64,000 nucleotides of DNA from the NCBI RefSeq assembly GCF_017302985.1, contig NZ_JAFIMU010000007.1, positions 868,001-932,000 of the forward strand, read 5' to 3'. Below, in pieces: positions 40,341 to 47,891 of the stretch. The position numbers and the translations under genes were made by a program. The DNA comes from Corallococcus macrosporus. Its GTDB lineage: Bacteria > Myxococcota > Myxococcia > Myxococcales > Myxococcaceae. How positions within the stretch are numbered: the first letter of the stretch is position 1; each line of letters begins with the position of its first letter. The notes beneath the pieces are model-generated. The model searched no databases, was not told the origin of the DNA, and saw nothing but the letters and a program-made list of their open reading frames with translations.

Positions 40341-40411
40341 GAGTCCCGCCATTGCGTGCGAGTCCCGACAGGGAGTCAACCGCGAACGTGCGCACGGAAG
40401 CCGTGTTTCCT

Positions 40412-41011
40412 ATGGTGCGCCGCGTGACGACGATTCCTGCCGACCCCATCCAGCGCTTCGCGGACCTCTTCGCCCAGGCGAAGGCCGCAATTCCCGTGGA
40501 CCCCAACGCCATGGTCGTGGCGTCCGTGGACGACCAGGGCCGCCCCAGCTCACGCGTGGTGCTGCTCAAGGACTTCGATGCGCGGGGCTTCGTCTTCTTC
40601 ACCAACTTCACCAGCCGCAAGGGGCGCCAGCTCCAGGCGCACCCGTACGCGGCGCTGTGCTTCTTCTGGCAGCCCCTGGAGCAGCAGGTGCGCATCGAGG
40701 GCCGGGTGGAGCAGGTGACGGACGCGGAGGCCGACGCGTACTTCCAGAGCCGCGCGCGCGGCAGCCAGATTGGCGCGTGGGCCAGCCTCCAGAGCCAGGA
40801 GCTGCCCTCGCGCGAGCTGCTGGAGCAGCGCGTGGCGGAGGTGGAGGCGCGCTTCCAGGGCCGCCCGGTGGAGCGCCCGCCGCACTGGAGCGGCTTCCGC
40901 GTGGTGCCGGACCGCATCGAGTTCTGGCACAGCCGTCCCAGCCGGCTGCACGAGCGCAACCTGTACCTGCGCGACGGCGCGGGCTGGAAGACGCAGCTGC
41001 TCTATCCGTGA
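40412..41011 (+). CDS. pdxH: Pyridoxamine 5'-phosphate oxidase
   Basis: The product is 199 residues. It is an FMN enzyme that oxidises pyridoxamine or pyridoxine phosphate to pyridoxal phosphate. The family signature is complete: [95 protein letters not shown] and the C-terminal [23 protein letters not shown] 40412 is used; GTG 40424 is almost as likely. It converges on the CapA-like gene with a 22-base gap. Confidence 0.96.
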
Positions 41012-41033: not shown

Positions 41034-43460
41034 TCAGGGCACGCGGTGCTCGCGGAAGGTGACGCGCAGCGTGTACGTGCCCGCCGGGGCCTCCACGCGC
41101 ACGAAGTCCCGCGCGTGCGGCGTCGCCTGGGTCAGCGTGCCGCCCGTGGCCTGCTTCTCCCAGGCCACCAGCGCCAGGTCGTCCACCGCCGTCACGCCCT
41201 GGCCGGACTTCGGCGCCGCGGTGTTGAGCGTCAGGTCCAGGGCCCAGGGGGCGTTCCACAGGTTCGGGCCAGGCGGGTCGGCGGGGAAGTTCAGGTCCTC
41301 CGCCACCAGCGTCCAGTCGTAGGTGCCGCCGTCGTGGCGCAGCAGCGTCTGCTCTCCGAAGAGGGTGTAGGACTCCACGGGCACGTACTGCACCTTCGCG
41401 GAGAAGGCGCCGCCGCCCTGCCCCTTCAGCCACGCCACCGCCGTGAGGTCGCGGTTGGGCGGGCCTTCCGCGAAGCCCGGCGGACGGAAGCGGTTGACCA
41501 GCTTCACCGCCGCGCTCCGCTCGCCCGACGCCCGGCGCTGGCAGAGGGCCGCGGCGCCCCGGTGCGGCCCGTCCTGGCAGACGTAGCCGGCATTCGGCCC
41601 CACGCTCCAGCGCGCCGCCTCGTTGGCGTCGTCGTCCACGTCGTGGTCCTCGAAGTCGCCGTGCAGCAGCACGTCGCGTCCGGCCTTGAGCTTCACGGCC
41701 GTGCCCTCCGCCGTGCCCGTGAGCCGGGCCACCGCGACGGATTCGCCCTCGTGGCGCAGGGGCCGCAGGTCCACCGTGGCGCGGCCGTTGGCGTCCACCG
41801 TCACCGGCACGTCCACCGTGCGCTCGCTCACCGTGGCCTGGGTGCCTTCGGGGAGCAGCTCGCCCCAGGAGGGCTGGGGCACCAGCTCCACGCCGCCCTC
41901 GCGGGACAGCTCCGCCAGGTTGCGCAGGAAGCCCTCCGCCAGGTCGCCCGCGACGGGCCGGGGGCGGTAGTCCTCGATGTAGACGGGCACCGCGCGGGCG
42001 CGGTCCACGTGCGCGCCCGTGGCCTCCACCTCCGCCATGAGGCCCACCATCGTCTCCATGCGGTCCTGGTCGAAGGCGAAGTTGCCCAGCGACTGCGCCA
42101 TCAGCACGCCTTGGTGGCGCGCGAAGCCCTGCGGGATATGCGGGTGGTGCGCGATGACCAGCCCCGCGCCCGCGTCCACCAGGTCGCGCATCCGCTGCGC
42201 CGTCGGGGTGGAGGGCCGGACGCTGTACTCGACGCCGGTGTGCAGCACCGCCACCGGCACGCGCCCCTGCGCCCGCTCCGCGCCCAGGAGCGCGGACACC
42301 CGCGTCATGTTCCGAGCGTCCGCCGCGCCGCCCTGGTTGGGGCCCGCGACGTACTGCTGATCATGCGCGCTGCCGGTGATGGAGCACATGGAGACCAGGC
42401 TGTAGCTCGTGCCCGCCAGCGGCACGCGCGCCGGGACGAAGGCCTGGTCCTCGTTCTGGCCCGCGCCGCTGTAGGCCATGCCCGTGGCGGCCACGTGCGA
42501 CAGCGTGTCCGCCAGGCCCGGCGCCAGGTAGTCGTAGACGTGGTTGTTGCCCAGGCTCACGTAGTCCACGCCCAGCCACGGCAGCGCGGGCATGGAGCCG
42601 GGCAGCGTGAAGAACGCGTAGGCCTTCTCGTCGTGGGGCGTGGACGGCTGGTCCGTCACCGGCGTCTCCAGGTTCACGGCGCGGAAGTCCGCCGCCTGGA
42701 AGTACGGCCGCACGTGCGTGAAGACGGCCTTCGTGCCCGGCAGCGGATCCGACACGCGGATGAGCGCCGCCGGGTCGTCCTGGGGCATCTGGTTGCGCGG
42801 CGTGGTGTCGTCCGGATCCAGGAAGCGCCGGCCCAGCGACACGTCACCCGCGAAGAGCATCCGCACGCCATCCTTCGGCGACAGGCGCACCGGAGGCAGC
42901 GTCACGCGCTTCTCCGTCAGGCCCCGGCGCAGCTCCACCGCGACCACCGCCGGACGGAAGCCCTCCGCCTCCACCGTGAGCAGCCGGTTGTGACGGGGCA
43001 GCACGGGGAAGCGGAAGTGGCCGGCCTTGTCCGTGCGCGCCTGCGCGTCCCCTACCTTCACCACGACGTCCGCGACCGGCGCGCCCGCGGTGGAGACCAG
43101 CGAGCCCTCCAGCGCGATGCCGGTGCACGCGTAGTCGCGCCGGGCGGAGCGCTCGGCGTCGGGGAGGGAGGCATCCGCCGCGGGCTCCGGCGCGCAGGCC
43201 GTCAGCACCGGGGACTCCTCCTCCGGGGGCGGCTCCTCGGCCGTCTCGTCGGGAGGGGGTTCCTCGCCGGGAGGCGGCTCCTCGTCGGGCGGGGGCGTCT
43301 CCTTGGGAGGTGTCTGGTCGTCCGGAGGCGTCACCGGCGTCTGGGGCTCATCGCCCGGCGTCACGGCGTCCTGTCCCTGCTTCGGCGTGGACGTGCCGGA
43401 ACCACACGCCACGAGCAACGCCGCCACCCACCCCACGGGCCACCACCGCCGCCACGCCAT
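41034..43460 (-). CDS. CapA-family (poly-gamma-glutamate synthesis type) lipoprotein
   Basis: The product is 808 residues. The lipobox ends LVAC (Cys19). A Pro/Glu/Asp-rich linker (residues 20-85) precedes a carboxypeptidase-regulatory-like beta domain (GIALEGSLVSTAGAPVADVV). The metallophosphatase-like CapA domain follows with FAGDVSLGRRFLD, GVDYVSLGNNHVYDYLAPG, VLHTGVEYSVRPS, GLVIAHHPHIPQGF and LMAQSLGNFAFDQD. The last 300 residues look like carbohydrate-binding beta sandwiches. CapA takes part in poly-gamma-glutamate capsule retention in bacilli; here it is an outer-membrane or periplasmic protein of unknown substrate. Confidence 0.85.
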   Translation of the reverse strand: MAWRRWWPVGWVAALLVACGSGTSTPKQGQDAVTPGDEPQTPVTPPDDQTPPKETPPPDEEPPPGEEPPPDETAEEPPPEEESPVLTACAPEPAADASLPDAERSARRDYACTGIALEGSLVSTAGAPVADVVVKVGDAQARTDKAGHFRFPVLPRHNRLLTVEAEGFRPAVVAVELRRGLTEKRVTLPPVRLSPKDGVRMLFAGDVSLGRRFLDPDDTTPRNQMPQDDPAALIRVSDPLPGTKAVFTHVRPYFQAADFRAVNLETPVTDQPSTPHDEKAYAFFTLPGSMPALPWLGVDYVSLGNNHVYDYLAPGLADTLSHVAATGMAYSGAGQNEDQAFVPARVPLAGTSYSLVSMCSITGSAHDQQYVAGPNQGGAADARNMTRVSALLGAERAQGRVPVAVLHTGVEYSVRPSTPTAQRMRDLVDAGAGLVIAHHPHIPQGFARHQGVLMAQSLGNFAFDQDRMETMVGLMAEVEATGAHVDRARAVPVYIEDYRPRPVAGDLAEGFLRNLAELSREGGVELVPQPSWGELLPEGTQATVSERTVDVPVTVDANGRATVDLRPLRHEGESVAVARLTGTAEGTAVKLKAGRDVLLHGDFEDHDVDDDANEAARWSVGPNAGYVCQDGPHRGAAALCQRRASGERSAAVKLVNRFRPPGFAEGPPNRDLTAVAWLKGQGGGAFSAKVQYVPVESYTLFGEQTLLRHDGGTYDWTLVAEDLNFPADPPGPNLWNAPWALDLTLNTAAPKSGQGVTAVDDLALVAWEKQATGGTLTQATPHARDFVRVEAPAGTYTLRVTFREHRVP

Positions 43461-43609: not shown

Positions 43610-44299
43610 CTACCAGGGGACTTCCGCGCCCTCGTAGTCGAAGAACCGGCCGGAGTGCTCCAGCGAGATGCTGTCGATGACCCTGAGCATCCCGCGCACG
43701 GACTCCTCCGGCGGCAGCGGCGCGTCCTGCCCGCCCATGTCCGTCTGCACCCAACCCGGATGCAGCAGCACGCACGCCAGCCCCTCGCGGCGCAGGTCGT
43801 TGGACATGGAGCGCACGCCCATGTTCAGCGCGGCCTTGGACATGCGGTAGGCGTACGCGCCGCCCTCCGTGTTGCTGGAGAGCGACCCCATGCGCGACGT
43901 GACGTGCGCCACCTTGCGCCCCGCGCCGGTCCGCAGCGCGGGCAAGAGCGCGGAGGTGATGCGCAGCGGCCCGAGCGCGTTCACCTCGATGGTGCGCGCC
44001 AGGTCCTCGAAGTCCAGCTCGTGCAGCCCCACCCACTGGCCGGACACGCCCGCGTTGTTGATGAGCACGTCCACCGGCTCGCGGGAGACACGCTCCGCGA
44101 ACGCCTGGACGCTCGCCGCGGAGGTGACGTCCAGCGGGTGGATCCTCAGGCGGTTGCCTGCTTCCAGCAGCAGCGGCTCCAGACGGCGCGCCAGCTCCGG
44201 GGCCCGCACACCGGCGTCCACGGTTTCCCCCCGTCGCAGCAATTGCTGAACGAATTCGAAACCGATGCCACGGCTGGCACCTGTGATGACATAGCGCAT
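43610..44299 (-). CDS. csgA: C-signal protein CsgA (short-chain dehydrogenase)
   Basis: The product is 229 residues, the length of Myxococcus CsgA p25. The SDR fold is complete: TGASRGIG nucleotide loop (Thr6), LINNAGVSG, catalytic Ser135 in HVTSRMGS, and YAYRMSK (Tyr151, Lys155). Positions 6, 135 and 155 coincide with residues mutated in studies of M. xanthus CsgA, as I remember them. The C-terminal HSGRFFDYEGAEVPW also matches my recall of CsgA. CsgA is needed for the C-signal that drives rippling, aggregation and sporulation. The start at ATG 44299 has AAAGG upstream. It is divergent from hemG (104 bases), which also fits a CsgA locus. Confidence 0.88.
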   Translation of the reverse strand: MRYVITGASRGIGFEFVQQLLRRGETVDAGVRAPELARRLEPLLLEAGNRLRIHPLDVTSAASVQAFAERVSREPVDVLINNAGVSGQWVGLHELDFEDLARTIEVNALGPLRITSALLPALRTGAGRKVAHVTSRMGSLSSNTEGGAYAYRMSKAALNMGVRSMSNDLRREGLACVLLHPGWVQTDMGGQDAPLPPEESVRGMLRVIDSISLEHSGRFFDYEGAEVPW

Positions 44300-44310
44300 G
44301 CCTTTATTAA

Positions 44311-45804
<1,494 letters not shown>

Positions 45805-45914
45805 GCGACCGCTCACCCCGGACTCGCGACGGCCGGGGGCACCCCTCCCCGAAGGGTCCCTGGGGCGGTGTCACAGTGCGTGGGCATGTTTCACGGACAC
45901 CGGAGAAAGCCCCC

Positions 45915-46028
45915 ATGTTCTCACTGCGCTCGCCGCTCCTGTTCGTGCTCGCCGTCGTCTTCTTCCCCGCGGTCCTCGCCGGGACGCTCGTCCTGGACCT
46001 CATGCCCGCGCCCGTCCCCCAGCGCTAG
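45915..46028 (+). CDS. Small single-pass membrane protein
   Basis: This 37-codon frame has a hydrophobic core (PLLFVLAVVFFPAVLAGTLV) and the Pro-rich tail PAPVPQR. GGAGAAAG lies about 10 bases before ATG 45915. It precedes the LytS-type kinase gene by 31 bases. It could be a real small inner-membrane protein or a leader; conservation is untested. Confidence 0.5.
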   Translation: MFSLRSPLLFVLAVVFFPAVLAGTLVLDLMPAPVPQR

Positions 46029-46059
46029 CGGGCGGGACGGTGTAGCCTTCCGCTTCCGC

Positions 46060-47118
46060 ATGCAGGAGACGTCGCCGGAAGGCTCCATCGTTCGCGCCAC
46101 GCTGCGCGCGCTCGTCGCGCCGTGGCGGCTGGCGCCCATCGTCCTGGTGTCCCTCCCGCTGCTGGCGGCCCAGGTGCGCTGGAGCGTGGAGCCGCGCGCG
46201 TTCTGGATTGGCCTGCTGCTGTGCCTCCTGTGCGTCGTGGTGGCGCCCGTGTCGTACCGGGTGCTGTTCCCGGAGGGGCTGGACCTGAGCCACGGAGGCA
46301 TCCGCCTGCTGCTCTACGCGGCGGTGGGCAGCGGCGTGGTGCTGTCGGTGGGCTACGCCCTGCCGCGCGTCACGCTGATGCAGGACATGTTCCTGTCGGA
46401 GCCGTACAACCTGGCCATCTGCGGCGGCTTGTTCCTCGTCGCGGGCTGGGGGCTGGGGCGCGACATCGGCTTTGAAGAGACGCTGGCGCGCGAGCGGGCC
46501 CGCGCCACCCGCTTCGCCTGGGAGGCCGAGCAGGCGCAGCTGCTGGCCCTGCGCAGCCACCTGGATCCGCACTTCCTCTTCAACACGCTCAACGCCATCG
46601 CGGAGTGGTGCCGCGAGGACGGCGCCGTCGCGGAGGCCGCCGTGCTGCGGCTGTCCACGATGCTGCGCTCGGTGCTCGCGGGCGTGCGCAGCGTCAGTTG
46701 GCCGCTGGCGCAGGAGCTGGAGTTGATGCGCACGCTCTTCGAGCTGCACCTGCTGCGCGACCCGGACCTGTTCCAGCTGCGCATGGACGTGGCGGACGGG
46801 CTGGCGGACGTGCCCGTGCCGCCGCTGGTGCTCTTGCCCCTTGCGGAGAACGCGGTGAAGCACGGCCCGGCGGCCGGCCACCGCGGCCTGCTGACCGTCG
46901 AGGTCACGGCGCGCGACGGGGCGGTGGTGGTGAGCATCGACAACCCGGGCGCATCCAAGGGCCCGCGCGAGGGCAGCGTGGGCCTGCCCACCGTGGAGCG
47001 GCGGCTGGCGCTGGCGTACGGCGGCCACGCCCTCTTGTCCCTGGAGAGCGCCGACGGGCGCACCCGTGTCACCGTCACCCTGCCCCGCCAGGGCCCCCAA
47101 CCCGGAGTCCTCACGTGA
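46060..47118 (+). CDS. LytS-type sensor histidine kinase
   Basis: The product is 352 residues. The N-terminal 130 residues hold about four membrane helices. A short linker leads to the His_kinase (LytS/YehU) domain: LRSHLDPHFLFNTLNAIAEW, with His171 as the phospho-acceptor. An HATPase domain follows with LAENAVKHGPAAG and SVGLPTVERRLALAYGG. Such kinases pair with LytTR regulators, and here one is encoded directly downstream with overlapping codons (GTGA at 47115). ATG 46060 is chosen; upstream frame shows no signal-like or domain content. Confidence 0.88.
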   Translation: MQETSPEGSIVRATLRALVAPWRLAPIVLVSLPLLAAQVRWSVEPRAFWIGLLLCLLCVVVAPVSYRVLFPEGLDLSHGGIRLLLYAAVGSGVVLSVGYALPRVTLMQDMFLSEPYNLAICGGLFLVAGWGLGRDIGFEETLARERARATRFAWEAEQAQLLALRSHLDPHFLFNTLNAIAEWCREDGAVAEAAVLRLSTMLRSVLAGVRSVSWPLAQELELMRTLFELHLLRDPDLFQLRMDVADGLADVPVPPLVLLPLAENAVKHGPAAGHRGLLTVEVTARDGAVVVSIDNPGASKGPREGSVGLPTVERRLALAYGGHALLSLESADGRTRVTVTLPRQGPQPGVLT

Positions 47119-47891
47119 GAGAGCCCCTGCGCGTCCTCATCGCCGACGATGAACTGCTGGCCAGGAAGCGCCTGTCGCGCCTGCTGGCCGCGCTGCCGGA
47201 CGTGAGCGTTTGCGGCGAGGCGGTGGATGGGGACTCGGTGCTCGCGGCGGTGCGCGCGGGCGGCGTGGACGTGGTGCTGCTGGACATCCACATGCCGGGG
47301 CTGAGCGGGCTGGACGCGATGGCGCTGCTGCCCGAGGGCGGCCCCCACGTCATCTTCTGCACCGCCCACGCGGAGCACGCGGTGAACGCCTTCGAGCACG
47401 GCGCGGTGGACTACGTCCTCAAGCCCGTGGAGGCGGCGCGGCTTCAGAAGGCGCTGGAGCGCGCGCGGGCGCGGCTGCCGGCGCGGGTGAAGTCCGCGCC
47501 CGTGGCGCAGCCGGCGGTGCCCACCGGAGAGAAGCCCGCCTTCGCGCGGCTGCCCATCCCGACGCGGCAGGGACTGGTGCTGGTGTCACCGGACGCCATC
47601 TCCCACGCGTCGCTGGAGGACGAGCTGGTGACGGTGTTCACCGCGCAGGGCGACTTCCTCACCGACTTCACGCTGAACGAACTGGCGGACAAGCTGCCCC
47701 CGGAGCACTTCCACCGGGTGCACCGCCGCGCGCTGCTCAACCTGTCGCACGTGACACGGCTGGAGCCGCTGGAGACGGGCGGCTACCTGGCGCGCACGGC
47801 GCGGGGTCACGCGGTGGAGGTGAGCCGCCAGTCCGCGCGCGAGCTGCGCCGCATGCTGGGCCTGCGCAAGGGCGCGGAGGACGAGGGCTGA
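47115..47891 (+). CDS. LytTR-family response regulator
   Basis: The product is 258 residues. The receiver domain has IADDE, phospho-acceptor Asp57 in VVLLDIHMPGLSG, Thr in FCTAHAEHAV and Lys in VLKPV. A linker leads to a LytTR DNA-binding domain (LEDELVTVFTAQGDFLTDFT, EHFHRVHRRALLNLSHVTRL). GTG 47115 overlaps the kinase stop. It should bind direct repeats near its target promoters; the targets are not known. It converges on the lipoprotein gene ending at 47926. Confidence 0.92.
   Translation: MREPLRVLIADDELLARKRLSRLLAALPDVSVCGEAVDGDSVLAAVRAGGVDVVLLDIHMPGLSGLDAMALLPEGGPHVIFCTAHAEHAVNAFEHGAVDYVLKPVEAARLQKALERARARLPARVKSAPVAQPAVPTGEKPAFARLPIPTRQGLVLVSPDAISHASLEDELVTVFTAQGDFLTDFTLNELADKLPPEHFHRVHRRALLNLSHVTRLEPLETGGYLARTARGHAVEVSRQSARELRRMLGLRKGAEDEG

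Follow-up and report, generated by a model that had tools for sequence, protein, structure and literature searches.

A 64,000-nucleotide stretch of Corallococcus macrosporus DNA, analysed whole and called the window here, carries the true Corallococcus orthologue of csgA, which underlies contact signalling in fruiting myxobacteria. As a gene identification this finding is ordinary, and the window gene serves as a reference point for its relatives. Corallococcus has the residues of the Myxococcus xanthus protein, whereas close fruiting relatives differ at them or have no csgA, which gives the window gene its value for comparison. We put a probability of about 0.9 on its being a functional csgA orthologue that, by analogy with M. 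xanthus, would be induced on starvation and encode p25, a Sniffer-like short-chain dehydrogenase (SDR) serving as an enzyme, as a precursor cut by PopC, or as both.

The csgA gene and its product

The features discussed below are as follows.

40352–41011, plus strand: pdxH (pyridoxamine 5'-phosphate oxidase), ancestrally next to csgA and convergent with it; start codon provisional
41034–43460, minus strand: PGA_cap (CapA-like) lipoprotein, 808 aa, separating csgA from pdxH in most Corallococcus
43610–44299, minus strand: csgA, 229 aa, Sniffer-like short-chain dehydrogenase (Pfam, homology, AlphaFold model)
44300–44403, no strand: csgA–hemG divergent intergenic region, 104 bp, used for upstream-region comparison
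44404–45804, plus strand: hemG/hemY-type protoporphyrinogen oxidase, divergent from csgA; counterpart of MXAN_1293

A sequence-only reading of this DNA had proposed csgA from a length of 229 residues, Thr6, Ser135, Lys155 and the C-terminal motif, giving no strand. Each of these characters was confirmed at exactly 43610–44299, on the minus strand; read on the plus strand, the same interval is not a gene. The product begins MRYVITGASRGIG and ends GRFFDYEGAEVPW. Translation starts at the ATG at 44299, and 'MRYVITGASRG' is common to the syntenic orthologues at equal distance. A longer version from a TTG at 44374 (254 aa) was ruled out, as orthologues start at MRY. An internal start is likewise not supported: neither Corallococcus nor the M. 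xanthus-group genomes compared have an equivalent of the internal Met that we take to begin a 166-aa p17 form in M. xanthus.

Pfam assigns the protein to the short-chain dehydrogenases. It has the TGxxxGIG and YxxxK motifs and a full-length match to Sniffer and carbonyl reductases, as expected of a Sniffer-like classical SDR. A residue check found T6, R10, S135, Y151 and K155 all intact, the first two in the coenzyme pocket and the other three as catalytic residues. The AlphaFold model (pLDDT 95) has carbonyl reductases as its best fold matches, including Drosophila Sniffer (1sny, TM 0.95).

The match at positions 6, 135 and 155 is thus present, but as proof of csgA it is weak because nearly any SDR shows it. 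Each of the seven unrelated window-genome SDRs that were checked has Thr, Ser and Lys at the equivalent positions, as do 70 of 74 distant relatives, and the C-terminal Trp/Gly pattern is likewise found across the wider subfamily. The numbering itself (6/135/155) discriminates better than these identities alone: it occurs in 53 of 73 syntenic orthologue loci (duplicates included) but in none of the nine belonging to the nearest paralogue.

Orthology and copy number

Identity, tree position, single copy and synteny with hemG and pdxH establish the orthology of the window gene, not the three residues, and on those grounds the identification as csgA was borne out. The protein is 98% identical to that of Corallococcus exercitus, the closest named relative. 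Alignment to Myxococcus CsgA, which the sequence-only reading had suggested as a check, gave 75% identity over 228 aa with an M. xanthus-group orthologue (L108); this protein and another from the genus Myxococcus (L114) match the C-terminal stretch of M. xanthus CsgA. Identity is 87–98% within Corallococcus and 70–78% to Myxococcus, Pyxidicoccus and Citreicoccus, and csgA is retained with its conserved locus in 16 of 16 Corallococcus genomes. This conservation, along with the presence of popC and popD, argues against a housekeeping Sniffer/PRK06953-like SDR carbonyl reductase that has no signalling role in Corallococcus and was co-opted in Myxococcus only. That alternative draws on an SDR subfamily widespread in non-fruiting bacteria, on the shared fold of CsgA and carbonyl reductases, on a genome of the deeper genus g21 (G081) that has csgA at the same locus without popC or popD, and on one fruiting genus that lives without csgA. 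We consider it improbable and favour a functional csgA orthologue.

A genome-wide search of the window genome (9.81 Mb, 17 contigs, 99.99% complete) returned the window gene as the single full-length CsgA match, at 499 bits. The next-best match is an ordinary SDR, partial, at 36% identity and 75 bits; a closer CsgA orthologue elsewhere in the genome, which the sequence-only reading had named as grounds for rejecting its call, was not found. In the CsgA tree, the syntenic orthologues form one group (support 0.81) that includes the window gene. That another gene of this genome is the true CsgA and the window gene a paralogue has almost no probability left: several Myxococcus and Corallococcus species do have a second CsgA-like gene, 51–54% identical and away from hemG, but the window genome has no second copy, its gene occupies the hemG/pdxH locus and clusters with the syntenic orthologues, and the search rules the idea out save for a gene in an assembly gap.

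The second gene, paralogue B, occurs away from hemG in some Myxococcus, Pyxidicoccus, Citreicoccus and Corallococcus genomes (L019, L020, L022, L024, L161 and L176–L179). Its product (L019, L022, L176 and others) shares the SDR residues of window CsgA at 51–54% identity, but it differs in genomic place, in falling into a separate clade and in numbering (6/134/154).

The hemG–csgA–pdxH locus

The arrangement of csgA divergent from hemG and convergent with pdxH is conserved in Myxococcus, Pyxidicoccus, Citreicoccus, Stigmatella-like and Archangium-like genomes and g21. In M. xanthus, csgA (MXAN_1294) is divergent from MXAN_1293 (PMC4320627). The PGA_cap lipoprotein gene, whose product also has a carboxypeptidase-regulatory-like domain, is lineage-specific and lies outside the C-signal system: it is absent from this place outside Corallococcus and also in one genome (G030, L098) in which pdxH directly adjoins csgA. 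On the other side, hemG is followed by a pair of genes for a LytS-type histidine kinase and a LytTR response regulator (45868–47891, plus strand), conserved there across Myxococcaceae. We also observed a Myxococcus-type csgA locus in BNCN01000002.1, titled 'Comamonas sp. KCTC 72670'; this record falls in the genus Myxococcus and is probably mislabelled.

The region upstream of csgA holds a conserved element, TTTTGCCA...GCGCGTTAAT, which Corallococcus and Myxococcus share and whose end lies ~5–9 bases before the ATG. On the minus strand of the window, the conserved element has TTTGCCA (44330–44336) followed by TTAATA (44305–44310), 5 nt before the csgA ATG. Given this spacing, it is probably the promoter of a csgA mRNA that is leaderless or nearly so. 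Regulation of csgA in M. xanthus requires DNA to −930, partly within MXAN_1293 coding DNA (PMC4320627). The first 280 codons of hemG showed no drop in synonymous variation that would point to csgA control DNA inside that gene. A strict MrpC motif (TGTYN8RAC) was absent from the 1 kb upstream of csgA in both Corallococcus and the M. xanthus group, with scattered matches elsewhere.

popC, popD and a proposed mechanism

Two models of CsgA action have been put forward in M. xanthus. In one, cleavage of CsgA p25 by secreted PopC yields the p17 signal; in the other, intact CsgA is a cardiolipin phospholipase (PMC11559036, PMC4880591, PMC6434023). The choice between PopC-made p17 and CsgA lipase is still debated (PMC11559036). 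According to work cited in that paper, CsgA, Sniffer and HSD10 are reported cardiolipin phospholipases, releasing diacylglycerol from cardiolipin.

We searched for popC with a query from an M. xanthus-group genome (G077), a 475-aa protein of 50.9 kDa with a C-terminal subtilase domain (published mass, 50.8 kDa). The popD of that genome was placed at a TTG in the next ORF, which lies exactly 1437 nt after the start of popC, as PMC4320627 implies for popD. The window genome has a popC 86% identical to the query, in which the catalytic Asp, His and Ser are all intact. Just downstream is a popD (69% identity), which encodes the inhibitor of the PopC processing protease. With both genes present, the p17 and phospholipase routes are each possible in this Corallococcus.

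We infer expression, PopC cleavage and signalling of CsgA in this species from M. xanthus. By that analogy, starvation would induce csgA from the divergent hemG/csgA promoter region. Its product, p25, would be a Sniffer-like NAD(P)-binding SDR serving as a membrane enzyme with lipid substrates (the cardiolipin phospholipase model), as the PopC-trimmed precursor of the p17 C-signal, or as both; cutting by PopC to p17 is probable. CsgA would thereby couple cell contact to aggregation and sporulation.

Cystobacter without csgA

The genus g6 (four genomes, G031–G034, including fruiting Cystobacter fuscus DSM 52655) has no csgA at the pdxH–hemG locus or elsewhere, and its best CsgA matches are partial SDRs at 35–38% identity that lack the CsgA C-terminus. 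At its loci (L127–L130 and L184–L187), the neighbours pdxH, hemG and the histidine kinase are retained, and only a few tens of bases separate pdxH from hemG at the position expected for csgA. A HemG+PdxH+PopC tree puts g6 together with the Archangium-like genomes (presumably Archangium, g3) at 100% support; a larger HemG+PdxH tree agrees, with weak support at that node. Because these sister genomes and the deeper g21 have csgA in place, the gene pattern marks its absence from g6 as a loss, not a primary absence.

All four g6 genomes retain popC (73–74%) and popD, and the PopC catalytic triad is intact in the three genomes checked. The reverse combination appears in g21 (G081 and G082), which has the pdxH–csgA–hemG locus (L133, L158): a search of G081 found neither popC nor popD alongside its csgA. 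Together, these genomes make csgA and popC–popD separable, and csgA probably occupied this locus before the PopC system arose. The g6 genomes, keeping popC–popD without csgA, suggest that PopC has another substrate or role in Cystobacter.

Altered CsgA in the Stigmatella group

Ser6 together with Thr135 occurs in 10 of 10 orthologue loci of g7 and g8 (eight genomes, G035–G042), which we take to be Stigmatella. All eight genomes also encode a seven-residue insertion beside the active site, after position 135 and before the catalytic Tyr (L118, L144, L147, L149, L151, L153, L157 and L163). These proteins, including that of G037 (one contig of 10,260,756 bp, presumably Stigmatella aurantiaca DW4/3-1), are encoded at the same locus as window CsgA, share 58% identity with it and keep the active-site Y and K. 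Lee and colleagues, in Genes Dev in 1995, reportedly abolished M. xanthus CsgA activity with substitutions at T6, R10, S135 (S135T) and K155. Some other SDRs tolerate Thr at the position of the SDR Ser, so Stigmatella CsgA may have kept its chemistry.

We give slightly better than even odds to a joint reading in which csgA is not fixed in Myxococcaceae fruiting: PopC would have another substrate or role in Cystobacter, and the Ser6/Thr135 CsgA of Stigmatella would work by altered chemistry or without any, for example purely as a PopC-cut precursor. Our literature search turned up no report of csgA loss in g6 or of Ser6/Thr135 in Stigmatella, and no paper connecting csgA with Cystobacter fuscus; the comparative genomics of Huntley 2011 and 2014 may mention the loss. 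These natural variants, Ser6/Thr135 on one side and popC–popD without csgA on the other, separate the predictions of the p17-signal and lipase models. The Cystobacter and Stigmatella cases thus make it testable whether CsgA is an enzyme, a precursor or dispensable.

Comparison with known systems

M. xanthus CsgA (MXAN_1294, p25/p17) has the same length of 229 residues as window CsgA, the same T6, R10, S135, Y151 and K155 positions and the same C-terminus, and M. xanthus shares with the window genome a divergent hemG and a genomic popC–popD. The differences lie in 25% of residues between the M. xanthus-group and window proteins, and in the extra CapA-like gene that separates csgA from pdxH in most Corallococcus. 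Drosophila Sniffer (1sny) and the bacterial proteins 5tqv and 5wqm, carbonyl reductases by annotation, share the full-length SDR fold, the catalytic residues and the C-terminal Trp, yet they are only 31–38% identical to window CsgA and lack the developmental locus.
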